Positions 2,974-16,670 of a DNA stretch of 64,000 nucleotides are shown here, piece by piece (within the stretch, counting starts at the first letter, position 1; every line of letters starts with the position of its first letter). Location of the stretch: the NCBI GenBank assembly GCA_019873655.1, contig JAIOAU010000005.1, positions 1 to 64,000 on the forward strand, given 5' to 3'. The notes beneath the pieces were generated by a model. That model saw only the letters and a program-made list of their open reading frames with translations. It ran no database searches and was not told the DNA's origin. Origin of the DNA: Chloroflexota bacterium (GTDB taxonomy: Bacteria > Chloroflexota > Anaerolineae > Anaerolineales > Villigracilaceae). Position numbers and translations under genes: made by a program.

Positions 2974-4539
2974 TTACAAGGCGATCTTTTCGACCACGTC
3001 GGGGTCGTCCTGATATTTGAGCAAGCGCAGGCCCTCCAGGCGCAGGGCCTCGGGGAAGAGAGCCTGGTAGATGTTGCAGTTCGGCGACTTGACATCGTAG
3101 CGTCCCGTAGCGCGGAAGGTCTCCAGCGGACAGCCGCCGGCGCACCAGTAGCGCCACTGACAGTCGCGGCAGCCCTCCTTTTCCTCCACCGACACATTCT
3201 GGACCCCGAGCCGGTCGGCGCGGACGAGGGCAAGTGGGTCGGCCGCCGAGGCGTCGGTCAGCGGCTGGCGCAGAAGCATCTGACATTTGGCCACCCGTCC
3301 CTGCGGGTCAAAGACGAGATAGTTCTGCCCCACCCCGCAGGTATGGACGTGCGGCAGGGACAGGTTGGCGCGGTCCACGATGCCGCCGAGGAAGGGTCGG
3401 CGCGGCAGGTTTTCTTCGATGACCCTGAACGCGGCCCGCATGCCGGCGATGATTTTCTCCTCGTCCAGGCGCAGGTCGTCATGGGAAGCCGAGAGCGGAT
3501 TCTCGCGGTAGAAGTTCAGGCTGAAAGGCAGGTCGCGCTCCAGAATCCAGGCCATGACTTCGGGGAGTCCCTGCGCCGTCCGCCCGCTGACCGTGACCGA
3601 GATGTTGGGCGTAAGGCCGTTGGCAAGGGCCAGGTCCACGGCTTCGGCCGCATCGGCGAAGGAGCCGCGTCCGCCCGCGTAACGGCGATGGGCGTCGTGG
3701 TATGCGCCGAGTCCATCCAGCGAAATCATCAGGCGCAGGCCGAGCGCGCGCATCGTCTTGGCCATTTGCGGGGTCAGGAGCGTACCGTTGCTGAGGACGA
3801 CGCCTTCCAGGTCGAGACCGTGCCGCTCCGCCAGCGATTGGGCGTACTGGTGCAACTCCACCATGAGCGGGAAGCGCAGGAGCGGTTCGCCGCCCGCGTA
3901 TTTGAACTTCACGTGCTGAAAGCCGTTGGCCAGCGCCGAGCGGAAAGCGGCGTCAACCGCCGCCCGCCCGGTTTCGAGCGACATGTCCTCGCGCTTGTGA
4001 GGCAGGTAGCAGTAGTCGCAGCGCAGGTTGCAGCGGTCGGTGAGGTGGAGCCAGGCCGTCAGGCCGACAGGCTGGACAGCGCGGCAGGTGGCATCGGTGG
4101 AGGCGCAGGCGCAGTCGATATCCGAAACCGTGCAAGCGCAATCGCTCTCGGCTGGCGTCAACAAGCCGAGGTCACTCCAGAGATGGATCAATGCTTCGGC
4201 CTTGTCCGCAAGCAAGGCTGGAGCGCAATCGTCCAGCGGGCGCGGCTCGGCAAAAGCCGCCAGCAAGGACATTTCTTGCCGGTCGAGCACAGCAACCCGG
4301 CCCAACGCGGCGGGACTGACAACCAGAGTTTTATCCGTTGTCAGCGGGTAGGTCAAAAGACCTGGAGCAATTTGCCAGCGAGAGGCGGATAAGCGGCTGG
4401 AGAGCGTCCTTTTTCCTGTGGCTGGAACGCAGGCGCAGTCATCCTCCTGTGTTTCGGTCCGCGAGGCGGCGATGAGCGTCTCTCCTGCACAGGCGCAGTC
4501 ATTACCCCCAACATCAATATTACGATGTTGTGTCAGCAT
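2974..4539 (-). CDS. Radical SAM/SPASM maturase-like protein with repeated DCAC motifs
   Basis: The 521-residue protein has a radical-SAM cluster motif CNLRCDYC (Cys170, 174, 177), the GGEPLLR motif, and a C-terminal SPASM region. SPASM cysteines are in HTCGVGQNYL, VAKCQML, CRDCQWRYWCAGGCPL and SPNCNIY. This layout matches anaerobic sulfatase-maturase and peptide-maturase type enzymes, which use SAM cleavage to modify a peptide or protein. The N-terminal part (about 50-130) resembles the small recognition domain found before the radical-SAM core in peptide maturases. Unusually, DCAC occurs four times, at residues 14-17, 34-37, 133-136 and 142-145, plus a related DCAP at 104. No precursor peptide or sulfatase gene is adjacent. 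The ATG at 4539 was chosen because AAGGGAGA precedes it; the upstream in-frame ATG at 4566 has no SD. The substrate is unknown. Confidence 0.85.
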   Translation of the reverse strand: MLTQHRNIDVGGNDCACAGETLIAASRTETQEDDCACVPATGKRTLSSRLSASRWQIAPGLLTYPLTTDKTLVVSPAALGRVAVLDRQEMSLLAAFAEPRPLDDCAPALLADKAEALIHLWSDLGLLTPAESDCACTVSDIDCACASTDATCRAVQPVGLTAWLHLTDRCNLRCDYCYLPHKREDMSLETGRAAVDAAFRSALANGFQHVKFKYAGGEPLLRFPLMVELHQYAQSLAERHGLDLEGVVLSNGTLLTPQMAKTMRALGLRLMISLDGLGAYHDAHRRYAGGRGSFADAAEAVDLALANGLTPNISVTVSGRTAQGLPEVMAWILERDLPFSLNFYRENPLSASHDDLRLDEEKIIAGMRAAFRVIEENLPRRPFLGGIVDRANLSLPHVHTCGVGQNYLVFDPQGRVAKCQMLLRQPLTDASAADPLALVRADRLGVQNVSVEEKEGCRDCQWRYWCAGGCPLETFRATGRYDVKSPNCNIYQALFPEALRLEGLRLLKYQDDPDVVEKIAL

Positions 4540-4733
4540 ACTTCTCCCTTTCGATAACGAAGCCATTAAATATTATACAACGCCTGTCAAGTGAAAAAGG
4601 GAACGAACGGCAAGATTTGCGCACTCCTTCCACTACTCAAGGCTCACATGACCACCAACCGACGAGCGGATTGACCTGATTGCACAAGCTTCCAGAGAAG
4701 GGAATTGGGGTGCTGGACGGAGAAATAAAACGA

Positions 4734-4756
4734 GAAGGATGTTGTTGGCATCCTTC
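4734..4756 (-). terminator. Terminator of the multi-ATPase operon
   Basis: An 8-bp stem GAAGGATG/CATCCTTC (4734-4741 with 4749-4756) is followed on the minus strand by a T-rich tract (GTTTTATTTCT). It lies 25 bp beyond the stop of the last ATPase gene. It would separate that operon from the radical SAM gene, making the latter an independent unit. Confidence 0.65.
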
Positions 4757-4780
4757 CCGCTTGGCTGGCAAAGAGATGCA

Positions 4781-7700
4781 TTACTCAAGCAATAGCGCCC
4801 GCTTGACCAGCATCTGCCGAAGTTGGGAGCGGCCAACTAAATCGTATTTCTCCTCCCATTCTGTAAGGCACTCCGCAAATATCTGTAAATTATGCATTCG
4901 CAGCGTTTTGAGATGGTCGTAAATCTGCTGTCTGGCGATTCGGAAATCGCGGTACTCTGGAGCATAAAAGGCATTGTGTTCCAAGGCTAGGAAATAATAT
5001 TTAGCAAGTTTTTGACAGACGTCTCTTACTATCGCCTCGTTTCTTACCGTTTCCTCGTCATTAGAGGATTTGATGTGTAAACTTATCTTCTCATAATTAT
5101 CACGATAGAAACGATGTCCTTTCAGCATGTACAGTTTTCCCAATTGGGTCGAAAGCAAAGGTTGATATTCATTCCTCCCGTAAATTTCAGGCCTGGATTT
5201 TCCCTCGGGCAATTCATAGGGCTCTAATAACTTTTCAACCTTGTCTTCTGCTTCTTTCCCAATACTCTCACCCATCTCGCCCGCATAGAATCCCAACCAC
5301 GCCAGGTTGACCAGGGCATCCACCTGACGATAATGGATTTGATCCTGTGAAACTAATGAAGCAGCTAAATCAGATGCTTTCTGCAAAGAATCCCGGCTTT
5401 CCTCAATAAGTTTTTGCATCTCATACTGTGAGAGACTCAAATCATGCATTACTTTCACCATATCACGGCGCGCGCACCCCATCTCGATCTGCGCTTCCAC
5501 CTGGCGGCTTTTCTCGCCTATCTCTTCAAAAACAGCTAATGCTTCTTGAGCGTGCTTGAAAGCCTGTTCAATCTGTTTTTCCGCATCGGCACTACCCAAT
5601 GCATTAGCCTGACGGCGGATAGCCTCTGCTAATGCAGTTTTCGCCAAACCGATGCCGCGTTTGGCTTCAAACACTCGAAAGATGGCAAGCGCCTTGGATG
5701 CATAATCAATCGCGTCTTTATAACGTCCCTCATGAGTATTTATCACCGCGAGGGTATTCAGACTATAGGCTACTTGCGTACCAAGCCCCAGTTCACTGCG
5801 TAATTCCAGCGCATTTTCAACCAGCGAATAAGCATCGCTGGATTCTCCTTTCAACATGAGCGCATACCCCAAATCATTGTTGACAGTCGCAATTTCCGCT
5901 TTCAGGTCAATATCTCGCAACCAGACCGACGCTTGCCGATAATCTGCAATAGTAGCCTCAATTCTCTCTTGTACACGATAAGCATACCCGCGAATACGAT
6001 AAGCAAAGGCTGTGAGCATTTTTGCCAGCCAGACACTTATCTCATCGTTGCTCTCTCTAATCGACTCAAGCACTTTCAGTACAGACTCAATTTCCATAGC
6101 AACCGCTTTCGGGTTAATGTAAGCCAGCGCATAAGCCTTCCAGACAGCCAGCATCGCTTTTCTCAGCGGGTCTTGCAGAGCTGCTGGCCAGGCATTCTCA
6201 ATCTTCTGAACCTCCTCCAACACTTTGCTGCTCTCACCCCTGGCCCAAGCCCGTTTGACCGGCGTCAGAAACAGCGACCAGCGCACCAGGTCATCGTCCC
6301 AGCCTGAATCTTTTTTATCTTTGCCTGCGCCCAACTCGCGCGAATAGGCTTTTAACTCCAATTGCAATTGCAGGGCAAATTCCAAATCGCCGTCAATAAC
6401 GGCCTCATGGTCATAACGCACCCAGCGGCGGTAGCCCTTAGGCGGGTCCTCGCGCAGGCGGTAGTAGAGCAAGGCCAAAAGAATTTCAGAACGACGGGCA
6501 AGGAGTTCGCCCAGTTCATCCCAATCAATGTCACGCCCTTCGTTCGTTTGAATCTGCTCGTAAACCTTTCTCAGGTCATGTCGCACATTCTTGAAACGCA
6601 TTTCATAACATTCAATCACTTTCTTATAAATTTCTTTCTTGTCGGGTTCAGCACCGGGAAGAGCAACGCCAAAGGCTGTTGCCCGCAACAAGTCGTATAG
6701 TTCATCATGCAAAAAATAGGTTTTTGTTTTCTGTTCACGGCCTTCGCGATATTTCACAAAAGAAAACTGTTCAATGTCCCTCAGGTAATTTCCTGCCACA
6801 TCCCCAGGCAATCCCAAAATGTTGCACAAAAGGTCAACATTCAAGCCCTTGGCGGTAAGCGCCATGTAACGCAAAACTTCGCCCAAGCGCGGCAGGCTTA
6901 AGAGACGCTCCAAAATTTTCTCTTTGAAGCGCTCCTGCGGCGTTTTTTTGGCTGCAACGCGCGAACTTTCAAATAACGTCTGAAGCAGGCCGCCGCTGGC
7001 AACGTAATCTGCTGTCAGCGCCAGCATAATCGGCCGGCCGCCGCTCAATTCATGCGCCAGTTTGACTTCTTCAGGTGTCAAAGACTCCAGACTTTTTGCG
7101 ACGCGATCAGCTCTGTTGCGGCGCGCCGTGGCCGCTGCGGCCTGGAAGTAGGCTTGCGCTTCCTCCAGCGAAAAAGTATCCAGAGGAACAGGCAACACTT
7201 CAATCGAGGCATCCAAACCTTTCAGCAATGGACGCGCTTCTTCTCGCCCGGCAGCGACAAGAACGATGTTCGGCGTATCCTTCAGTTGACCGGTCAGCCA
7301 GGTCCAGGTCTCGGCGGCTTCCGGCACATCGGGAATGTCCGTCCCATAGGCAAAGCGTTCCAGTGTATCGAGCAGGATAACCACACGCTGCCCTGTATTG
7401 TTCAAAAAGAGTTTCAAGCCAGCCACAAAAGAATCAAGAACCTGTTGTATCTGCGTTTCCACCTGCACCGCCTCGCCGGAGAGGCGAACGTTCCGCAACA
7501 CGCGAGCATGCTTCTCGTACTCGCGGAACGAACTATCCAAGGGTGTCAGGCTTTGATAGACATCCTGCACGAACTCAATCGGCCTGTGCACCCGCAGGTG
7601 ATAGGCATCCACCAAAGGCTCACTTACTTTGACGCCAGGCATGGTCTTGCAACGCGTGATAATCTCTTTCAAGAAGCGCGTCTTGCCAATCCCGCCCGGG

Positions 7701-7831
7701 CCTTCGAGGAAAATGATGCAGGAACGGGGATTGGACGTGTCCTGAATACGCCCAAGGACCTTTTCCAGTTCCTTCTCGCGTCCGACTAGTTCAGGGGTGG
7801 CAAAAGCGCCAGTCAGGGTTTCGGTAATCAT
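4781..7831 (-). CDS. STAND-type ATPase with TPR-like repeats (1016 aa)
   Basis: The N-terminal P-loop domain begins with the typical LVGREKEL motif (residues 15-22). It has Walker A GPGGIGKT (44-51), Walker B VVILLDTLE (150-158), an arginine-containing sensor-like VAAGRE (about 192-197) and LSGGRPIMLAL at the end of the helical lid. A winged-helix-like segment (about 300-370) follows. The C-terminal two thirds is alpha-helical with TPR-like units (for example TQVAYSLNTLAVINTHEGRY and DAIDYASKALAIF). STAND ATPases act as ligand-triggered switches in signalling or defence. The start at 7831 has a GAGGAGG SD and sits 10 bp after the previous ATPase gene, so it is the last gene of a five-gene operon. 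There is no recognisable nuclease, TIR or other killing domain, so any effector activity is unproven. Confidence 0.8.
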   Translation of the reverse strand: MITETLTGAFATPELVGREKELEKVLGRIQDTSNPRSCIIFLEGPGGIGKTRFLKEIITRCKTMPGVKVSEPLVDAYHLRVHRPIEFVQDVYQSLTPLDSSFREYEKHARVLRNVRLSGEAVQVETQIQQVLDSFVAGLKLFLNNTGQRVVILLDTLERFAYGTDIPDVPEAAETWTWLTGQLKDTPNIVLVAAGREEARPLLKGLDASIEVLPVPLDTFSLEEAQAYFQAAAATARRNRADRVAKSLESLTPEEVKLAHELSGGRPIMLALTADYVASGGLLQTLFESSRVAAKKTPQERFKEKILERLLSLPRLGEVLRYMALTAKGLNVDLLCNILGLPGDVAGNYLRDIEQFSFVKYREGREQKTKTYFLHDELYDLLRATAFGVALPGAEPDKKEIYKKVIECYEMRFKNVRHDLRKVYEQIQTNEGRDIDWDELGELLARRSEILLALLYYRLREDPPKGYRRWVRYDHEAVIDGDLEFALQLQLELKAYSRELGAGKDKKDSGWDDDLVRWSLFLTPVKRAWARGESSKVLEEVQKIENAWPAALQDPLRKAMLAVWKAYALAYINPKAVAMEIESVLKVLESIRESNDEISVWLAKMLTAFAYRIRGYAYRVQERIEATIADYRQASVWLRDIDLKAEIATVNNDLGYALMLKGESSDAYSLVENALELRSELGLGTQVAYSLNTLAVINTHEGRYKDAIDYASKALAIFRVFEAKRGIGLAKTALAEAIRRQANALGSADAEKQIEQAFKHAQEALAVFEEIGEKSRQVEAQIEMGCARRDMVKVMHDLSLSQYEMQKLIEESRDSLQKASDLAASLVSQDQIHYRQVDALVNLAWLGFYAGEMGESIGKEAEDKVEKLLEPYELPEGKSRPEIYGRNEYQPLLSTQLGKLYMLKGHRFYRDNYEKISLHIKSSNDEETVRNEAIVRDVCQKLAKYYFLALEHNAFYAPEYRDFRIARQQIYDHLKTLRMHNLQIFAECLTEWEEKYDLVGRSQLRQMLVKRALLLE

Positions 7832-7841
7832 GGCATCCTCC

Positions 7842-9065
7842 TCAAGCAGGTTGAGCGGCGATCCTGGTCTTTTCGCATTCGGCCAATGTCCCAGCCTTCT
7901 CCAGCACTTCTCTATAGGGCATAGCCAGTTCTTCATACTCCTTTCGATACTGGCTATACTTTTCGGCATAGTCAAGGTAAATCTTATAGGCAGCGCAATT
8001 CAAGCGACGCCATAATTCGGGCTGGTGATGTTTGAGGTAGTTTTTCAGTACATTTCTCAGCGAAGCATCCACCCGAAAGCCTCCGCCCTCCCAGCGGAAA
8101 AGGTAGGTCTTGAGCAAATCGTCGCGCACTTCGCGGATGGAATAGGGCGGCATAGGCTGCTTTTTGGCTTCGTAATAGGCTTTGAGCATGATTTCCATTT
8201 CCCCCTCGCGGAATTCGTCCAGCACGCAGAAGGCTTCAAAAGCATCGCGCAGCCGGCGGCGTTCCAGCGAAGGCGGAATGACCTCTAGAAAATACTCGGC
8301 CACCTCGTCTAGGGCGCGGATGGGGTCGTCGGTCTGCTGCATCAGGGCATAGCCCACCAGCGGACTGCCGCCGCTCAATTCGGCCACTTGACGGTTTCCT
8401 CGGGTCAACTGCTCGACGGGGAAATCCTTGAGCGTTTCTTCTTTCATCTCTGTCCGCAGGCCGGGCGAAATCCAGGGATAGGGGCGGCCGCGTCCGGTCA
8501 TGATGAAGAATACATTCGGTAGTTCGGCCAGCGGCGCAAGCATATTTTCTTCAATTAGTTCTAGCAATTCCCAATCGGCCTCAAAAACCGAGTCGAGAAT
8601 CAAAACCAATGTTTGAATGCCGGTAAATTTACTCTCCACGCCGCTTACCAATGCCCGCCGCAACTCAAGCAAGGTCGGGTCGTTAGGATAAGGAATATTC
8701 AACTGCTCACAAACCCACTTCATTAAGCGTTCACAAGTCTTTTCAGATGCTCGTTTCTCAACCTTCTCTGATAGTTTGGCAATTGCCCATTCATTCTTAC
8801 ACAAATCATCCCAATACTCATCTGGCAAGGGAAAGAGTGCAATATACAGAGAAGTTATCGCCGATGAGATTCCGGGCAAGATGGTTCTATGCAAATGAAA
8901 ACACAACCAACTTTTCCCAAACCCACGTTCGCCGCGAAAGAGGATTGCTTTGGGGGGTTTCTCTCTTCCCCCTGACTCAAGATATTGATTGAACTTGCCC
9001 TGTATCAAATCCACTTCGGTGCGATGAATAAAAGCATCTTTAGAATACGGCTGAAGTTTAATCAT
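7842..9065 (-). CDS. P-loop ATPase, second-last gene of the ATPase cassette (407 aa)
   Basis: Walker A GERGFGKS is at residues 45-52 and a Walker B-like strand LVLILD at 153-158, followed by SVFEADW rather than the usual acidic DE pair. LSGGSPLVGYALM (about 240-250) matches the lid motif GGxPL of STAND ATPases. The remaining C-terminal half is helical with an IREVRDDLLKTYLF segment resembling a winged helix. There is no TM segment and no known effector domain. It is 12 bp downstream of the 388-aa ATPase and 10 bp upstream of the 1016-aa ATPase in the same direction. The missing acidic residue after the Walker B Asp may mean weak or regulatory ATP hydrolysis. Specific function not recognised. 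Confidence 0.75.
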   Translation of the reverse strand: MIKLQPYSKDAFIHRTEVDLIQGKFNQYLESGGREKPPKAILFRGERGFGKSWLCFHLHRTILPGISSAITSLYIALFPLPDEYWDDLCKNEWAIAKLSEKVEKRASEKTCERLMKWVCEQLNIPYPNDPTLLELRRALVSGVESKFTGIQTLVLILDSVFEADWELLELIEENMLAPLAELPNVFFIMTGRGRPYPWISPGLRTEMKEETLKDFPVEQLTRGNRQVAELSGGSPLVGYALMQQTDDPIRALDEVAEYFLEVIPPSLERRRLRDAFEAFCVLDEFREGEMEIMLKAYYEAKKQPMPPYSIREVRDDLLKTYLFRWEGGGFRVDASLRNVLKNYLKHHQPELWRRLNCAAYKIYLDYAEKYSQYRKEYEELAMPYREVLEKAGTLAECEKTRIAAQPA

Positions 9066-9077
9066 GATACCCTCCCG

Positions 9078-10244
9078 TTAATCGGGGAAAATGCTTCTCG
9101 TTAGATACTGTTGTTCGGCTTTCTGAATATCTTCTGGTTCAAGATACCCCTCTCTCGCTAAATAACATTGAAGTACAAGATTGGCCAGCATAATGGCCTC
9201 GCGCGGCAACGGACGGGCGCGCTCGGCGATTAGCGTTTCCACATGGCGCAGGGCCGGGCTGCTCAGCGCATCCAGACTGCCAAAACGTCCCTGGCTGGCC
9301 ACATAGACGCGCCGGCGCAGGATTTCAGCCAGTTTGGGGACATCCCATTGAATTTGCGCTCTCAAAGACTGACGATAGAAGTCCCTGGCCTGCGCGGCAA
9401 GATGCACTTCCAAATCGGCGGGCAGGAAGGCTTTCAAAAAAACATTTGCTTTTGCCCAGACCGACGCTTGAGATAAAAGCGGCGCAATTACATCAAACTG
9501 CGCCTGGACATCCCCCGGCGGCAGGTTGCCGCCATCCACGCCATCCAAAAGAAGAAGGGTCGATTCGAACCGCAAATCTTCCCGAATGAAATCCAGCAGC
9601 GCCTCGAACTGCGCCGGACCAGACCAAAGGTCGCCCGCAGCGTCTTCCAGGTCTTGAAGCATGACCTTGCCCAGGCCTGCCGCCGCTTCTGGAGGAGGCG
9701 GGTCAGGCAGGCGATAGGTGCGGTCTAAGTAGTCGGAAAGTTGTCCAACATCGCCGCTTTCAGCCAAAATGCTTAAGATATATTCTAAACTGACGGGGAG
9801 CGCCACACGGAGCAACGATAAGAGATTCAAACGTTTGGGAACGGTAAGCGAGAGATACAAATCAGGCCGATAGGCGCACGCCAGAAGGACATCCGTGGCC
9901 GCGGCAGCGGCAATCGCAGTCTGGTGCGCTTCAAGGGAGGCCAATTCAGATAAATTAGCAAAAAATGGCAAATCATAGGAAATGGGGAACTTACGATATT
10001 TGCTTTCGCTCTTCCAGCAAGCGCGAAGTGTGTAAATGCGCATGGCCGTCTTGCCGCCGCCGGGAGGAGCAAAAAGCGCCGCTGGGGCTGTCTCCCAGGC
10101 GACGCTGAACATGTCATGCCCAATCAAATAACCGGAAATATAGGGGTCGTTGGAGGCTTCCAGCCGCTCAAAGGGATTAAAAGCAAAGCCCAGACTTGAA
10201 AGCCTTACTCCCACCGCGGTTTGTGTTTCCGGGGTCGCAGCCAT
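9078..10244 (-). CDS. P-loop ATPase of the ATPase cassette (388 aa)
   Basis: The N-terminus carries FAFNPFERLEASNDPYISGY, a variant of the NPF...G leader common before STAND-like P-loops. Walker A is APPGGGKT (59-66) and Walker B STLLLLDGVDG (about 228-238). A Pro-rich bend (PDPPPPEAAAG) splits the domain near residue 185. The C-terminal 100 residues are helical (LPREAIMLANLVLQCYLARE). No membrane segment or effector domain was recognised. A 97-bp gap with a direct-repeat operator separates it from the winged-helix ATPase gene upstream, so it may also be expressed from an internal promoter. The start at 10244 follows TAAGGAGATG at about 13 bases. Confidence 0.75.
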   Translation of the reverse strand: MAATPETQTAVGVRLSSLGFAFNPFERLEASNDPYISGYLIGHDMFSVAWETAPAALFAPPGGGKTAMRIYTLRACWKSESKYRKFPISYDLPFFANLSELASLEAHQTAIAAAAATDVLLACAYRPDLYLSLTVPKRLNLLSLLRVALPVSLEYILSILAESGDVGQLSDYLDRTYRLPDPPPPEAAAGLGKVMLQDLEDAAGDLWSGPAQFEALLDFIREDLRFESTLLLLDGVDGGNLPPGDVQAQFDVIAPLLSQASVWAKANVFLKAFLPADLEVHLAAQARDFYRQSLRAQIQWDVPKLAEILRRRVYVASQGRFGSLDALSSPALRHVETLIAERARPLPREAIMLANLVLQCYLAREGYLEPEDIQKAEQQYLTRSIFPD

Positions 10245-10279
10245 TACATGAATACATCTCCTTACTGCTTGGTTTTACC

Positions 10280-10345
10280 AATATATCGTTCTTTTTTCAT
10301 TCCCCCCATTTCGCCCCTCTCCCGTGATTCTCACAAAAATCTCAC
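10280..10345 (-). promoter_or_regulatory. Internal operator (direct repeat) and possible -10 upstream of the 388-aa ATPase gene
   Basis: Read on the minus strand, GTGAGAT (10339-10345) is followed by four T and GTGAGAA (10328-10334), giving an 11-bp period. It overlaps the stop codon of the winged-helix ATPase gene. A TATATT box (10280-10285) lies closer to the next gene with no matching -35, as expected if the promoter needed an activator. The same operator occurs at 14034 and 14259. Confidence 0.55.
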
Positions 10346-11724
10346 CACACATTTTCCAGGCGAACGATTCCCTTCCCGCGCTCCGAGACGACATACACTG
10401 GCTGTTTGGGATTAGGCTCCAAAGCCTGGCGCAGGCGCCAGAGAGCCGTATCCATGATGCCTTCCACCGTGTCGGGCAGTTCCCACGCAGAATCCTCCGT
10501 GGAACGCGGTTGATGATCCAGGCCGCGCAGGCCGCGATAGTACAGTTCTTGCTTGTCGCAAGCGCGGTCAGGATGCATATACAGATAGCGCAAAAGATTG
10601 AGCGACGACTCGGACAAACCGCTCACGGGAAAATGCCCCAGAAAAACCTTTTGTAAAGCGGCATCCATACGCAGACGCGGCGGGAAACGGCGCTGGAGGT
10701 CTGCGGTTGCTTCGGGTGTAAGCGGCCCCTGCTCGGTCTGGACGAGGTAAGCATCCACAAAAGGACGCAGAAATTCCAGCCAGCCGCGCGGGGAGGAACC
10801 GCCGTACTTTGCCAGCCAGGTCAGTAAGCCGGCATCTTCCGAAAGTTCTTCGAGACGGAACGAGTCCTTGCCGCAGGCCAGCGCCAACCGCCGCTCACAA
10901 AGATGACGCAAGGCCTCTGCCGGCCAGGTTAACTCGAAAATCTCGAACCGGCGGCGGGTCAAGCCGGTAGCCGCCGAAATCAAACTCTTCATCCGCAGCG
11001 GAGCCATCACCTTGACAGTAAAGCCGGGAACATCGAACACCGCGAGAGAAGAAAACAGGGCTGTCAGCGAGCGGCTCAGCGCAGCGGCTTCGAGCGTGAG
11101 CCAGGCATCCAGGCCATCAATCATCACCCAGAGTCCGCTCAAGCCGGCTGCGTCCAGTGTTCGTACCACTTCGGTCACCTGGCGTGGATAGGGGGCATGA
11201 GGCGGCACCAACATCTTAGGCGTGCGACTCAAAATCTCACCCAGAAGAGCAGCGCCCTCAGCGCTTTCTTCGCTTTCCAGGCGCAGCAAAAACAACTCTT
11301 TATCGGTGCGCAAGTATTGGTGAATCAGCCAGACCATCCCCTCCTGGGCAAAGCGCGCCGCCTGCGTAAACCGTTCCGGCTGCCGAACCAGATGAACAGC
11401 CAGGGACTGCGCCGCCAAGTCCAGGATTTCCTCCACAAACCGTCTGACAAACGCCTCTCCTTCCGCCTCTTCCTGGACCCCAGCCTGCCACTCAACGATG
11501 AGCGGAGCCGCCGTCCCCGGCGTTTCCCGCGCCGCCTCGATGAGCCGCAGACGCAGAGCCGTCTTGCCGCTGCCCTCCTCGCCGAAAACAATGACCGAGC
11601 GCATCCCGCGCATGGCCTCGAATCCCTGCGGCGGGACGAAGACCTGTCCCAGCCAGGCGATCTCATCTTCGGCGCGCAAGGTGTCGAAGAAGGCAAGAGG
11701 AGAGGAGAAAGGGGAAGATGTCAT
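10342..11724 (-). CDS. ATPase with C-terminal OmpR/PhoB-type winged helix (460 aa)
   Basis: Walker A GEEGSGKT is at residues 48-55 and Walker B-like GLWVMIDGLD at 197-206, in a STAND-like domain. The last 90 residues (about 370-460) look like an OmpR/PhoB-type DNA-binding winged helix. The opening helix is SSLNLLRYLYMHPDRACDK, the recognition-helix region is TVEGIMDTALWRLRQALEP, and the wing hairpin is YVVSERGKGIVRL. This suggests an ATP-dependent switch coupled to DNA binding. OmpR-type proteins bind direct repeats spaced about 11 bp, and such repeats occur three times in this island, so this protein is the obvious candidate regulator; that link is inference. The ATG overlaps the stop of the membrane-protein gene by 4 bp (ATGA), implying translational coupling. 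Confidence 0.75.
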   Translation of the reverse strand: MTSSPFSSPLAFFDTLRAEDEIAWLGQVFVPPQGFEAMRGMRSVIVFGEEGSGKTALRLRLIEAARETPGTAAPLIVEWQAGVQEEAEGEAFVRRFVEEILDLAAQSLAVHLVRQPERFTQAARFAQEGMVWLIHQYLRTDKELFLLRLESEESAEGAALLGEILSRTPKMLVPPHAPYPRQVTEVVRTLDAAGLSGLWVMIDGLDAWLTLEAAALSRSLTALFSSLAVFDVPGFTVKVMAPLRMKSLISAATGLTRRRFEIFELTWPAEALRHLCERRLALACGKDSFRLEELSEDAGLLTWLAKYGGSSPRGWLEFLRPFVDAYLVQTEQGPLTPEATADLQRRFPPRLRMDAALQKVFLGHFPVSGLSESSLNLLRYLYMHPDRACDKQELYYRGLRGLDHQPRSTEDSAWELPDTVEGIMDTALWRLRQALEPNPKQPVYVVSERGKGIVRLENVW

Positions 11725-13967
11725 GACTGTTCGATGACTTCAAAATCGTCGGGTTGTAAATATTCCCTGTCGGGGTGATATTGAGCATGATGTGAGAGAA
11801 TCTTCTGACCCAATTCGAGCATACGACCGAGAGAGCCATGGGATTGTTGGACAAGTCTACGGTCGTATTCCAATGGATCTGCAACAAATGGAGGACGCGC
11901 GAACAGAGAGGTAAAGCTATCCCGACTACAAATCTTTTGAACTCTCAGCATCAAAATTTCCAATAAGGCATCGTCGCTCCACCTAACTAACAAATCAGAT
12001 TCTTTGGGAATCTCTTTTGTAACCACTATCTCTTTGACAACGATCTTTTGTCTTAGCAATTCTCTCCGAGAAGCGCTTACGGCTTGTTGCCACTCATCGT
12101 TGAGCATTTTTTCACAAACTAGGATTAAGACGGTATGAGTAAGCCAAGGCGGTCGAATGTTCAACCAATCCAATATCTGCTCACTGTTTGGCAGAATGTC
12201 TTTTCCGTAGGGCAGGCTGAAATTAGCTATTCTTTCAAGCAGGACGTCCCTTTCTTTTGCCCAAACATCATTTTCTTTCCCTGAAGAATCCTTTTCTATC
12301 TGGGTAAAACGTTGTCGCAAACGGCCGTTCAAGGCCTGCACAGACCCGACATGCCAGCCCAAGAACCCTGTCAAGGCATCTCGCTCCGCCGGGCGCAAGT
12401 CCAGAAAGGCTTTGGGATTTATCACAACAAACTCTATCCAAGTCTCGGCTACTCGACGGGAAATCTGCTCTAATACCGAATGAGAAAATTTGTCCGGCTT
12501 TACATTCCAAAAAACAGGGAAAATTCCGTCCCTTGGCATCTTTTGCTGTTCAACGTACTCTTTCCAGAGTGCTTGCATAAAGACTCTTGCATCTTTCTCG
12601 AACACAATGGCACGTGCTGACTCGCGAACAGATTTGAGATATCCCCATTGAGTGGGATTTACCCAACTCTCCTCGACAATTTTTTCTACATGAAACAGAT
12701 CAGAATAAAGAATGTTTGGCTGAACAACATCGGTCTCAAAAAAATGATGAAATGGTTTAACAAAATAATACTCATCCGGTAAAGTCAATCCATACACATC
12801 TTTCATCCAATCTAATTGCGGATACCGAAGAAGACGTTTTCGATGTGAAGATTTCTCAAGAGCCGTTTTTACGCTTCTAATAGTTTCATCGTCAGGTTGT
12901 CGAGGTAACTGCTCCAAAGAATATACTACTAAACCTGCGCTAAGCACGTCAAATTTGTCCCACATGTCTCCAATAGCATCTATTATCATCTTTGCCAACG
13001 TGGTGCCTTTTTGCCCATTCAACCAATCGTGAATTTTCTGCAAAGATGAAGCAAGAGCATTATTTTCTTTGTTATCCAAAACATTAGGGAAATTATCAAA
13101 AAAGGATAAAACCTTATCCAGGGAGGAGAGCAGAGTCCTTGTTTCCCCTCTGTCGCCCATTTCACTTAATTGTTGAACAACCTTCTTGCGAGCCTCGGAC
13201 TGAAATAAGCGTGATGCTAACTTCGCTAGTCTTTCCTTGTTTTCATTGTCCAAGTGTTTCTTCTCGGCATACTCTTTCGCCTCAATACACTGAGAAAGAG
13301 CAAACAGGGGATCACCAACAAAGTCAGAAGATAATCTCGATAAAGTCTCTCGAAAAGTGGTCTCTGCTTTGTCGGCTTCCTTGCCCAAGTATGTTACCAC
13401 CCACCCCGCAATTGCCGAAAGCAAACCCAAGGGGAGGGCAATATTGCGGGCAAAAATGTCCAGGAAAATTCGCCAGCGGACTTGAGCAAGCGACTCGGTG
13501 ACAACCTGCCCTAGCGGAATCGGGTATTCTAAAAAATCAACCAATAACTTTGCATTCAAGAATATTGTATGTTTATCAGCATCTGGCAATGCTTGCACCC
13601 TGGCACGAAAAACAGCGTTTCCTTCCCCCTCCCAGCGAGGAGAAATGGCCTGCCCACTATCGTCATAAAAGCCTAGTCTGTCGTCGGCTTCAAGCAATAG
13701 CACATATTTTGTTGTTTCAGGCGCAGTCACACGAAAAATCATCTCTTGGGCCGGCATATTTGGGGACGGCAAGAAGATTTCTGACGGATACGTCACCGCG
13801 ATTTGAACGCCGCTTACGATTGTACGGTCCGTAACAATGAAACGATTGGATAAATTTGCTTCCCGCCACTGGATGAGCAGCGCCGCGCCAATGAACACTA
13901 ATGTGATCCCCCAAAAGATAAACAGCGTCTTGTATCGCGCCCAAAGTGTACCAAGAGAGCCCGCCAT
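11721..13967 (-). CDS. Two-TM sensor-like membrane protein heading the ATPase cassette (748 aa)
   Basis: Basic residues precede TM1 (about 14-33), followed by an extracytoplasmic domain of about 140 residues (34-175) rich in beta-type segments. TM2 is at about 176-195 and is followed by lysines, and then a cytoplasmic helical region of 550 residues. The topology is N-in/C-in with a single external loop, like receptor or sensor proteins, but no kinase, HAMP or cyclase motif is visible. I do not recognise the family. It is the first gene of a five-gene operon with P-loop ATPases; the next gene starts inside its stop codon. The ATG at 13967 was chosen because AAAGGAG lies 11 bases upstream and a near-consensus promoter stands in front. 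The longer in-frame version would start at TTG without an SD. Confidence 0.75.
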   Translation of the reverse strand: MAGSLGTLWARYKTLFIFWGITLVFIGAALLIQWREANLSNRFIVTDRTIVSGVQIAVTYPSEIFLPSPNMPAQEMIFRVTAPETTKYVLLLEADDRLGFYDDSGQAISPRWEGEGNAVFRARVQALPDADKHTIFLNAKLLVDFLEYPIPLGQVVTESLAQVRWRIFLDIFARNIALPLGLLSAIAGWVVTYLGKEADKAETTFRETLSRLSSDFVGDPLFALSQCIEAKEYAEKKHLDNENKERLAKLASRLFQSEARKKVVQQLSEMGDRGETRTLLSSLDKVLSFFDNFPNVLDNKENNALASSLQKIHDWLNGQKGTTLAKMIIDAIGDMWDKFDVLSAGLVVYSLEQLPRQPDDETIRSVKTALEKSSHRKRLLRYPQLDWMKDVYGLTLPDEYYFVKPFHHFFETDVVQPNILYSDLFHVEKIVEESWVNPTQWGYLKSVRESARAIVFEKDARVFMQALWKEYVEQQKMPRDGIFPVFWNVKPDKFSHSVLEQISRRVAETWIEFVVINPKAFLDLRPAERDALTGFLGWHVGSVQALNGRLRQRFTQIEKDSSGKENDVWAKERDVLLERIANFSLPYGKDILPNSEQILDWLNIRPPWLTHTVLILVCEKMLNDEWQQAVSASRRELLRQKIVVKEIVVTKEIPKESDLLVRWSDDALLEILMLRVQKICSRDSFTSLFARPPFVADPLEYDRRLVQQSHGSLGRMLELGQKILSHHAQYHPDREYLQPDDFEVIEQS

Positions 13968-13995
13968 ATACTTTCTGCTCCTTTGCTCCACGAAC

Positions 13996-14024
13996 AGTAT
14001 AGATATTTTTCGCCCAAAAGTCAA
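13996..14024 (-). promoter_or_regulatory. Near-consensus promoter of the ATPase cassette
   Basis: On the minus strand TTGACT (14019-14024), a 17-bp spacer and TATACT (13996-14001) lie 28 bp upstream of the start codon at 13967. The direct-repeat operator at 14034-14051 begins 9 bp upstream of this -35 box, a position suited to an activator or, by overlap, a repressor. Confidence 0.7.
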
Positions 14025-14033
14025 CTATCAATT

Positions 14034-14051
14034 GTGAGATTTTTGTGAGAT
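14034..14051 (+). promoter_or_regulatory. Direct-repeat operator, copy 1
   Basis: GTGAGAT (14034-14040), four T, GTGAGAT (14045-14051) form a perfect repeat with an 11-bp period, one helical turn. It lies next to the cassette promoter. Its plus-strand orientation points toward the candidate RNA at 14.1-14.2 kb. Confidence 0.6.
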
Positions 14052-14129
14052 TACAGAGGACAATCGTTAGATAAGCGAAATAGCGTTATTGTTGCCCCAT
14101 GCTAGAATACAAGTAACTTATTCGCTGAA

Positions 14130-14240
14130 CAACGGAGGTGCCTATCGAAAAGTCCTAACAAATTTTCCTTTCGATACGAAGCCCACAATTTATTCAACAC
14201 TGGAACCCTGTCAGAAATCTCTGGCAGGGTTTTCTGTTGT
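14130..14240 (+). ncRNA. Candidate structured RNA ending in a terminator
   Basis: No ORF of useful length lies between 14052 and 14405. This stretch can fold into two hairpins. The first pairs TATCGAAAAG (14143-14152) with CTTTCGATA (14168-14176). The second pairs CCCTG-CAG with CTG-CAGGG (14206-14229) and is followed by TTTTCTGTTGTT, a standard rho-independent terminator. A terminator on this strand with no annotated gene before it implies a short transcript. I found no convincing -10/-35 for it and no match to a riboswitch class I know. Confidence 0.4.
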
Positions 14241-14258
14241 TCCTTACTCGACAAAGTC

Positions 14259-14283
14259 GTGAGATTGCTGTGAGATATGAGAT
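14259..14283 (+). promoter_or_regulatory. Direct-repeat operator, copy 2, upstream of the coiled-coil membrane protein gene
   Basis: GTGAGAT (14259-14265), TGCT, GTGAGAT (14270-14276) have the same 11-bp period as the other two copies. A further ATGAGAT follows directly (14277-14283). It reads toward the plus-strand gene at 14406, about 120 bp away. Confidence 0.55.
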
Positions 14284-14405
14284 GGGTGAAAGTGGGAAAG
14301 TCGCAATTTTGCGGTAGGACAGGCATAAGCGCATGAGCGCCCAGAAGTCAGTATCATGGTGACGTAAATTCGGTGTAGTCGTTTGTAAAGAAAGGAGAGA
14401 AGACC

Positions 14406-15029
14406 ATGAACTGGATTTCTGGATTTGCCCTCTTGCTGCTGGTCACCGGCCTCGTTGTTGGTCTGTGCGTTGCAGGCACTGACCTCCTGAACCCCGTCAC
14501 CAGCCAGGCCGAGGCCGAGCGCATCTCCGTCGAAACCCGCCACCTGGATGTGATGAATCAACTCGAAGAGCAACGCGTCGCGGCCAAGACTGAGGCCGAG
14601 ATTGCCCGCATCCGTCATCAGATGGAACTGGAAGAGGCCCGCTATCAGGCCGAACTGGCCCACATCGCCGCTGACCAGGACCACTACGAAAGGATGCTGA
14701 ATATCAAGGCAATGGCGTCTGAGGGTGCTATCGTTGTGGCGCTCATTCTCTGTGGGGCAGGTGGTATCTCGTTGATTATCGTCAGAACAAAGCTTGCTCT
14801 GGCCCGTATTCCGGCCAACTCTGCCGCCCCCTCGCCAGCAGCCACCAAGCAGCCTTCTCGCCAGACCACCCGCCGCCACTCGCCAAATGGTTACGAGCAG
14901 GAGCGCATCAATGCCCGTCAACGTGAGCTCCTCGAACTCGCGATCACCCAGCGGCGTGTCCGCGCCGCCTGCAACGGCAAAAACATGACCCCCGAGGAAT
15001 ACAGAAACCTTCCCCTCGCCGGTGATTGA
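14406..15029 (+). CDS. Small membrane protein with coiled coil (207 aa)
   Basis: An N-terminal hydrophobic segment (about residues 5-24, ISGFALLLLVTGLVVGLCVA) is followed by a charged, Glu/Ala/Arg-rich helix of about 65 residues that looks like a coiled coil. A second TM segment (about 104-124, GAIVVALILCGAGGISLIIV) and a basic, Ser/Pro-rich tail ending in a helical TPEEYRNLPL segment complete it. I do not recognise a family. The start has GAAAGGAGAG eight to fourteen bases upstream. It is divergent from the ATPase cassette and shares its operator type, so it may belong to the same system as a membrane partner; that is inference. Confidence 0.7.
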   Translation: MNWISGFALLLLVTGLVVGLCVAGTDLLNPVTSQAEAERISVETRHLDVMNQLEEQRVAAKTEAEIARIRHQMELEEARYQAELAHIAADQDHYERMLNIKAMASEGAIVVALILCGAGGISLIIVRTKLALARIPANSAAPSPAATKQPSRQTTRRHSPNGYEQERINARQRELLELAITQRRVRAACNGKNMTPEEYRNLPLAGD

Positions 15030-15294: not shown

Positions 15295-16182
15295 CTACCC
15301 CACCACCTCCGGCCTGATCCCCAACTCGTCAATCAGCGCGTTCAACTCCTCGTCCGTCAACCTTCTCCCTTTCCCTGCATACGCCGTCAGCGCGGCTTCC
15401 ATCATGTTGGTGCCGAAGGAGCGGCCGTCGTAGCGCGGGGTGGTGGTGACAATCGTCTGCACGCCGCGCGACTTGAGGAGGGCGATGTTCTCCTCGGTAG
15501 TGGTATTCGTGACCACGGTCTTGCCGCGCAGGTCGAGGGGCAGGTACTTGCGCATGAAGAGAAAGTCGCCCGCCAGCAGGTCGGATTCGGCGAAGTATTT
15601 CTCGTATTTCGGCTCGTGCTCCGCCCCGCCGCTGCCGTAGAAGAGCATGGACATCGGGAAGTAACTGACAATCGGGAAGAGCGCCCGCGCCAGCCGTTTG
15701 TAGGCGCGCAGACCATAGACCGGGATGGGAATGCCCAGGGCAATCATCAGGTCGCCGATGACCAGCCGCTCCGAAACTTCCTCGGCCGCCTGCGCCAGCC
15801 CCATGCGGTCCACCGCCACCGGGACGAAGGCCTGGCGAAAGCGCAATTCGCCCAAGACGGGACGCACGAACTCGAAGACGCGCCGCTCCAGGGTGTGCTT
15901 CAGGCCGCGCCCGTCGCAGAGCGGGGTTTTGGTCACGCCCTCGACCAGTTTGAGGGCGGCGCGCAGGGGATACTCGCGGTCGTCCAGGCGCAGGTACAGG
16001 TCCACGCCGCCGACGCCGAAGGCGTCCACCTTGCCGTCCAGGTCGAGGTACAGGCGGCGGGCTTTTTCCACGTCGCCATCGGTGCCGATGCGCTCGATTT
16101 CGACGGTCTCGCCGCCGAAGCGGACGGTGACTTTTTTGTCGCGTTGGGAACTACCCAAACTGATGCTGACGGCTCGTTTCAT
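15295..16182 (-). CDS. Quinate 5-dehydrogenase-like protein
   Basis: The 295-residue protein starts MKRAVSISLGSSQRDKKV and contains GETVEIERIGTDGDVEKA and FGVGGVDLYLR. Near the C-terminus it has a Rossmann-like strand with KTVVTNTTTEENIALLKSRGV. This pattern matches a family often annotated as quinate 5-dehydrogenase in Firmicutes and Chloroflexota, although biochemical proof for the family is thin. No signal peptide; one hydrophobic stretch (ARALFPIVSYFPMSMLFYG) is probably buried. The ATG at 16182 has a CAGGAGG SD and was chosen over longer in-frame starts that read into the tandem repeats. No quinate or shikimate genes are adjacent. The name should be taken as a family label. Confidence 0.6.
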   Translation of the reverse strand: MKRAVSISLGSSQRDKKVTVRFGGETVEIERIGTDGDVEKARRLYLDLDGKVDAFGVGGVDLYLRLDDREYPLRAALKLVEGVTKTPLCDGRGLKHTLERRVFEFVRPVLGELRFRQAFVPVAVDRMGLAQAAEEVSERLVIGDLMIALGIPIPVYGLRAYKRLARALFPIVSYFPMSMLFYGSGGAEHEPKYEKYFAESDLLAGDFLFMRKYLPLDLRGKTVVTNTTTEENIALLKSRGVQTIVTTTPRYDGRSFGTNMMEAALTAYAGKGRRLTDEELNALIDELGIRPEVVG

Positions 16183-16200
16183 GGGGGCCTCCTGGTTTTT

Positions 16201-16460
16201 AAACACGAAGGACTCAAAGGGAACACGAAGGGCACAAAAGAGGACAAAGTTGGAAACACAAAGGACTCGAAGGGAACGCGAAGGACACAAAAGAGGAAGA
16301 AGTTGGAAACACAAAGGACTCAAAGGGAACACAAAGGGCACAAAAGAGGAAGAAGTTGGAAACACAAAGGACTCGAAGGGAACACAAAGGGCACAAAAGA
16401 GGAAGAAGTTGGAAACACAAAGGACTCGAAGGGAACACAAAGGGCACAAAAGAGAAAAAT
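16201..16460. repeat. Tandem repeat, 53-bp unit, about five copies
   Basis: Units start at 16201, 16254, 16307, 16360 and 16413. Each contains the words AAACACAAAGGACTC, GGGAACACAAAGGGC and ACAAAAGAGGAAGAAGTTGG with a few substitutions. There are no unique spacers, so it is not CRISPR. It begins just upstream of the quinate-dehydrogenase-like start codon. Confidence 0.9.
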
Positions 16461-16469
16461 AACGTTTCG

Positions 16470-16670
16470 TGGACTTTGTGCATCCTTCCTGTCCTTCGTG
16501 TTCTCAACTTCACAAATCTCTTCGCGACCTTTGTGCGCCCTTCCTGTCCTTCGTGTTTTCAACTTCACAAATCTCTTCGTGACCTGTGTGTGTCCTTCCT
16601 GTCCTTCGTGTTCCCAACTTCACAAATCTCTTCGTGACCTTTGTGTGCACTTCCTGTCCTTTGTGTTTTC
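16470..16670. repeat. Opposed tandem repeat, 55-bp unit, nearly four copies
   Basis: The anchor CACAAATCTCTTCG recurs at 16511, 16566 and 16621. The unit also contains CCTTCCTGTCCTTCGTGTT. Its words are the complement style of the neighbouring 53-bp array, so the two arrays face each other. The array ends on the stop codon of the MBL hydrolase gene (16669-16671). Confidence 0.85.

Follow-up and report, generated by a model that had tools for sequence, protein, structure and literature searches.

Function and extent of a multi-ATPase cassette

What is the function of a compact row of ATPase genes that is headed by a two-transmembrane (TM) protein and includes a subunit with a DNA-binding domain? 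The question arises from a stretch of 64,000 nucleotides, here called the window, from a Chloroflexota bacterium of the Villigracilaceae (assembly GCA_019873655.1, contig JAIOAU010000005.1, positions 1 to 64,000). An earlier reading made from the letters alone (the sequence-only reading) had described five compact minus-strand genes, for proteins of 748, 460, 388, 407 and 1016 aa (A to E here), and a divergent gene, F, as a multi-ATPase cassette not described before, in which some ATPases are STAND-like and one binds DNA. The comparisons support this description and show the cassette to be conserved. All of these open reading frames (ORFs) were found in place at the positions first reported, and A to E form a tight unit in which A and B overlap by 4 bp and gaps of 10–12 bp separate C from D and D from E. 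The extent of five genes fell short, however, as a gene for a radical S-adenosylmethionine (SAM)/SPASM maturase, R, had been overlooked although it is the most constant partner of E; both R and F belong to the unit. We consider it probable that the cassette is a chromosomal immune or programmed-death system, a variant of the STAND or ‘ternary’ conflict systems, because such a reading suits the linkage of the genes, the exchange of effectors and a regulation private to the cassette.

In four further genera, the order A-B-C-D-E continues into R with an F gene close by, with protein identities to the window that fall from about 79% to 16% and are lowest for A. The order A-B-C-D-E-R was found in many families across the class; scattering of the genes as single copies in relatives, which would have spoken against a cassette, was looked for and not found. 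Among 31 neighbourhoods collected by searches with B and C, R was present in 22, and E lay directly upstream of it in 21 of these; the neighbourhoods outside this 21-locus pattern are mostly contig ends, with L072, L075 and L088 as real or unclear exceptions. A search anchored on R gave 39 testable loci; in 35 of them, E lies immediately upstream on the same strand, while in the other four E is either beside R but reversed (L259 and L260) or missing (L256 and L258). There is also a short form of the cassette, consisting of a single effector-ATPase gene together with E and R. F (207 aa; 14406–15029, plus strand), a divergent two-TM coiled-coil membrane protein, is an accessory gene in a subset of cassettes and is also present at L060, L089 and L243.

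R was detected in 69 of 396 genomes of the class and in 32 of 301 genomes of the phylum, and B in 52 of the 396 (E ≤ 1e-10). Presence is patchy, with A and D in 5 of 47 genera among the relatives. Named matches are Chloroflexota (Anaerolineales HSG25, Caldilineaceae, Roseiflexus and Thermoflexales). A nucleotide-pattern search of the genome contigs with A yielded no relatives, because A diverges too fast.

Exchangeable effector modules at the A position

Protein A (748 aa; 11721–13967, minus strand) consists of a TM segment, a beta-sandwich ectodomain, a second TM segment, a helical region and a C-terminal AAA+/ORC-like ATPase-type domain. The two TM segments, predicted at residues 14–32 and 176–194, agree with the sequence-only reading; Walker A is absent and no Pfam family was matched. 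An AlphaFold2 model (pLDDT 81.5, pTM 0.64) has the order TM, beta-sandwich, TM, helices and alpha/beta C-terminus, with weak structural matches to ORC, RFC and RdrA at the C-terminus and a likewise weak match to an Ig-like fold.

In related cassettes, the same position carries recognizable effector domains. TIR_2 is found at the A N-terminus in L027 (1e-24), L065 (1e-26) and L083 (1e-28) and in the leading gene of two short forms, L245 (8e-27) and L250 (9e-12), the caspase domain Peptidase_C14 in L062 (1e-16), Trypsin_2 in L087 (1e-11) and L255 (9e-7), and EAD7 in L074, L085 and L238, with various TM modules in other loci. Inspection by eye indicated that the catalytic residues are kept: His and Cys of the caspase, His, Asp and Ser of the protease (L087) and Glu of the TIR domains. 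Mapped onto the R tree, the effector type changes a minimum of 10 times, by a quick method on a tree with many open forks. One of these changes can be followed directly: the R proteins of L027 and the window are 65% identical, yet A starts with a TIR domain in L027 and with a TM segment in the window, which is a direct effector swap within a clade of 99% support.

Because relatives have a TIR, caspase or protease domain here, A is more probably an effector-bearing subunit than the membrane sensor it had first been taken for. The same domains bear on the output of the system, which had been left open with no nuclease or toxin domain visible; given that relatives carry known death effectors, it is no longer wholly obscure.

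The ATPases of the cassette

B (460 aa; 10342–11724), C (388 aa; 9078–10244), D (407 aa; 7842–9065) and E (1016 aa; 4781–7831) are all encoded on the minus strand. Of these four P-loop ATPases, B, D and E have a standard Walker A motif and C an APPGGGKT variant. D is an AAA_22-type ATPase. C matched no Pfam family, a sequence search of the PDB with it returned nothing useful, and it is a homologue of B (hhalign 99%). Both proteins match the NCBIfam model DS41_1_antiphage (NF053860), C over most of its length (4e-20, 72 bits) and B at 1e-15 and 57 bits, without reaching the curated cut-off of 370 bits; scores among homologues range from 35 to a best of 147 bits. The Sll1717-family ATPase model (NF047389) likewise stays under its cut-off of 75 bits, with 49 bits for B, 39 for C and at most 62 for homologues. 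B ends in an OmpR/PhoB-type winged helix, in line with the earlier description, as detected by Trans_reg_C at an E value of 1.3e-4, below the Pfam cut-off. E combines a STAND-type AAA_16 ATPase (4.7e-10) with a C-terminal TPR domain (TPR_12, 2.3e-10), both above cut-off and together the layout of a STAND protein with a repeat domain, and also matches HaaT (NCBIfam). This makes E, the core partner of R, a likelier sensor than A.

The C-terminus of A appears to be kin to B and C. In divergent loci it is matched by the C and B profiles, and in L079 by Sll1717 (6e-12). Direct profile comparison of A with B (hhalign, five A sequences) gave only 2% and no direct match, so the kinship is argued from the profile and Sll1717 matches to divergent A proteins and from the weak ORC-like fold.

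A radical SAM enzyme with an acidic-Cys tail

R (530-aa ORF; 2974–4566, minus strand; start probably Met10 at 4539) has the features of an RRE-radical SAM-SPASM maturase, namely CxxxCxxC, invariant SPASM cysteines and an RRE-like N-domain, the latter seen in an AlphaFold2 model and its match to CteB. Its nearest kin in structure and sequence are CteB and anSME, and its best NCBIfam match is PapB (NF047865), at 133 bits, and up to 146, against a cut-off of 340. Members of the R family score about 300–930 bits, as against 101–165 for 72 generic radical SAM-SPASM relatives.

The family carries a tail with DCAC motifs. In R, the first two (residues 23–26 and 43–46; 4429–4500, minus strand) lie in a predicted disordered N-terminal tail, and two further copies (residues 142–145 and 151–154; 4105–4143, minus strand) in a disordered linker ahead of the radical SAM barrel. 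The main segments of the model (pLDDT 79.7, pTM 0.83) that fall below 50 are residues 1–59 and 142–163, which hold all four motifs, and a DCAP at residues 113–116 sits in the folded N-domain. A Cys preceded by an acidic residue or Asn occurs ahead of CxxxCxxC in 60 of 64 non-redundant R proteins; the four without it include L246 and L253, which look truncated or broken, and L077, which has HCAC. The pattern [DEN]Cx[CP] was counted 104 times in R tails, compared with 4.8 (maximum 12) in shuffled tails, while none of the 72 generic relatives has a DCA[CP]-type motif or cassette genes beside it. Of 138 sites, 52 have an Asp or Glu at Cys+4, compared with an overall share of acidic residues of 10%, and Cys+4 is the position given by the CX3D spacing of PapB sites.

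In 36 loci, the surroundings of R yielded no separate motif-bearing precursor peptide, and the motif is confined to R tails, save for scattered background matches. The simplest reading is that R carries its own substrate and may modify its own tail, which is proposed because R is closest to thioether-forming maturases. PapB is reported to join Cys to Asp or Glu (PMC9413430), and such chemistry is plausible for R.

Variants of R were also seen. The tails of L248 (R at 3407–4993) and L252 (R at 3442–4965) have three to four similar repeats of the GEDDCFAPDAP type and are the clearest repeat arrays. R is preceded by two E-type STAND genes in a row in L265 and L267, and its tail there repeats NDCR, QDCR or QDCH in place of DCAC. 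An intermediate R-like radical SAM protein of 431 bits, from a Patescibacteria-labelled metagenome-assembled genome (L098, 2641–4053), has neither a DC motif nor a cassette and was kept as an outlier.

A cassette-only operator and probable local regulation

An operator-like 11-bp direct repeat, GTGAGAT-N4-GTGAGAT, lies just upstream of the A promoter (14034–14051, plus strand), a second upstream of F (14259–14276, plus strand) and a third, with one mismatch, at the B-C junction upstream of C (10328–10345, minus strand). With up to one mismatch allowed, these three are the only sites in the 3.04-Mb genome, all within the cassette, and the reversed control gave none. Across related cassettes, TCTCAC-N5-TCTCAC had 52 matches, compared with two for the reversed pattern. 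The repeat is present in 15 of 38 B-C gaps (shuffle expectation 0.03), which are not 15 independent events since the related cassettes share ancestry, and 22 of 22 sites have one orientation. PhoB/OmpR-like winged helices are known to recognize 11-bp direct repeats, and no protein of this type other than B was seen in the cassette. It is therefore likely that the winged helix of B autoregulates the cassette through putative binding to these operators. The promoter switch of the sequence-only reading is therefore supported in the form of local autoregulation, the genome’s only repeat matches lying in the cassette.

The near-consensus promoter assigned to A (TTGACT-17-TATACT; 13996–14024, minus strand) has 10 of 12 matches and is kept in a related genus. 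An intrinsic-terminator hairpin (4728–4762, minus strand; fold z −4.8) looks real, and a relative has, at the corresponding place, a hairpin that differs in sequence, but it does not mark the end of the cassette, as first thought, because it lies between E and R. Such a hairpin separates the two genes in the clade of the window, and E and R overlap elsewhere (L060). A conserved TATAAT block just upstream of R (4563–4577, minus strand) makes an own R promoter likely in this clade.

The candidate RNA between A and F (14105–14236, plus strand; about 130 nt) may be a small RNA. It has a TATCGAA/TTCGATA stem and a terminator hairpin and folds well (z −4.5), and its block GGAGGTG..TATCGAA...TTCGATACGAAGCC is unique in the genome, kept in L026 and partly kept in L027, but it had no match in an Rfam search.

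Genomic setting

In two related genomes (G015 and G035), the cassette lies between RecX-like/RNase Y-like genes and a row of genes that also flanks the cassette of the window: a 384-aa protein, a metallo-hydrolase-like, an MFS-like and an esterase-like protein, all named by eye. A genome of the same genus (G002) has matching flanks with other genes in between, one AzlC-like, and no cassette there (L280; G002:C62:12000-31900); it holds a divergent cassette at another place (L086). A tRNA integration site was sought, and the window has no tRNA. In a search of plasmids, R gave generic radical SAM matches only and an A homologue gave none. Near the flank of the cassette, window positions 16150–16650 contain repeated KHKGLEGNTKGTKE-like reading frames, open on both strands, which look like a short tandem repeat array.

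Comparison with known systems and alternative explanations

STAND and ‘ternary’ NTP-dependent conflict systems, one of which has a radical SAM protein and a separate peptide, were described by Kaur et al. 2020 (PMC7159879). Shared with the cassette are ATP switches, exchangeable effectors, EAD domains and a bias to multicellular lineages, including Chloroflexi, and in one subtype the radical SAM domain was proposed to modify a peptide effector. The cassette differs in having several linked ATPases, a presumed peptide fused to the radical SAM enzyme and its own winged-helix operator, and a Pfam domain scan of A–F and R found no vWA, MoxR or FtsH component. DS-41, from a phage-tested set (DefensePredictor, PMC13092281), is alike in that its DS41_1 model matches the ATPase of B, C and, in some loci, the C-terminus of A, but the matches are far below cut-off, and the main text on DS-41, which does not say what the system encodes, mentions no cassette, E or R. 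Neither the systems of Kaur et al. nor DS-41 match the layout of the cassette. The Sll1717 family covers the same proteins as a broad ATPase family, at about 36–62 bits against the cut-off of 75. R shares its RRE-radical SAM-SPASM layout with CteB, its best solved match, but unlike CteB and PapB it has the DC repeats as part of its own chain and is encoded in a cassette of ATPases and effectors. The TPR domain of E and the winged helix of B recall parts of AfsR-like STAND-TPR regulators, whose operators are tandem 11-bp repeats, although here one gene encodes the ATPase with TPR and another the ATPase with a winged helix. In a search limited to open-licence papers, the only relevant literature linking radical SAM with STAND or TPR proteins was Kaur et al. 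2020, besides an unrelated Dnd paper, so an earlier description elsewhere is possible.

The cassette could instead serve envelope-stress or nutrient signalling without any immune role, A sensing the outside via its ectodomain, the ATPases relaying the signal and B regulating transcription. The two TM segments and beta-sandwich of A would suit such a role, as would the OmpR/PhoB-type helix of B with its operator; we nevertheless regard it as improbable, given that the A position of relatives lacks an ectodomain and has a TIR, caspase or protease domain whose catalytic residues are intact, that the operator has its only genomic matches within the cassette itself and that presence is patchy. A RiPP (ribosomally synthesized and post-translationally modified peptide) biosynthesis cluster, in which R would make a peptide for secretion or signalling while the ATPases regulated a natural-product pathway, appears highly improbable. 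Although R is an RRE-radical SAM-SPASM protein closest to CteB and PapB and STAND-TPR proteins accompany other radical SAM RiPP enzymes (as in the HaaT match of E), there is no free motif-bearing precursor near R, the cassette map has no recurrent exporter or protease partner, and the effector domains at A are unfit for biosynthesis. More narrowly, the DC repeats of R might not be a substrate but bind a further Fe-S cluster or a metal, or work as a redox switch, which would be compatible with the immune reading. The tail is Cys-rich and C44-A45 is invariant in 27 aligned R proteins, but the motif is present in one to five copies, L084 and L087 have Pro in place of the second Cys, [FY]AP or CRP variants occur, the motif lies in predicted disorder and invariant cysteines are already provided by SPASM, which leaves this alternative doubtful, if possible.

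Several points count against an immune function. No system in a PADLOC search convincingly matched the window proteins, and B and C are far below the DS41_1 cut-off (57 and 72 versus 370 bits). The short form has R and E without A–C, and a multi-ATPase relay is therefore not universal. The ectodomain of A could equally serve as a sensor, and the role of the R tail could be metal binding or redox switching. Signalling systems outside immunity also have effector-like domains.

A possible mechanism

As an immune or suicide cassette, the system might work as follows. E would sense a cue of infection or damage and switch with ATP, and an assembly would be formed or relayed by B, C and D, which are related ATPases, together with A through its ATPase-type C-terminus. 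The N-terminal module of A would be the exchangeable executioner, a TIR, caspase or trypsin-like protease domain in relatives and, in the window, a two-TM, beta-sandwich version that might act on, and damage, the membrane. The winged helix of B would bind its own 11-bp repeats upstream of A, C and F and so control dose. R, being CteB/PapB-like, would most likely modify its own acidic-Cys tail, yielding a linked peptide by which the switch is set or triggered. Tentatively, we propose that R autocatalytically cross-links the acidic-Cys repeats of this tail (Cys to Asp/Glu, as PapB does), the state of which would arm or release the STAND-ATPase executioner; such a peptide guard would be built in and have no precursor gene of its own.

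If the immune reading is true, an immune-type system would be spread through the Chloroflexota in which several linked ATPases go together with an exchangeable killing module and a radical enzyme that appears to bring its own substrate. The system would connect the peptide chemistry of RiPPs with innate immunity in bacteria, in a form testable with single proteins.

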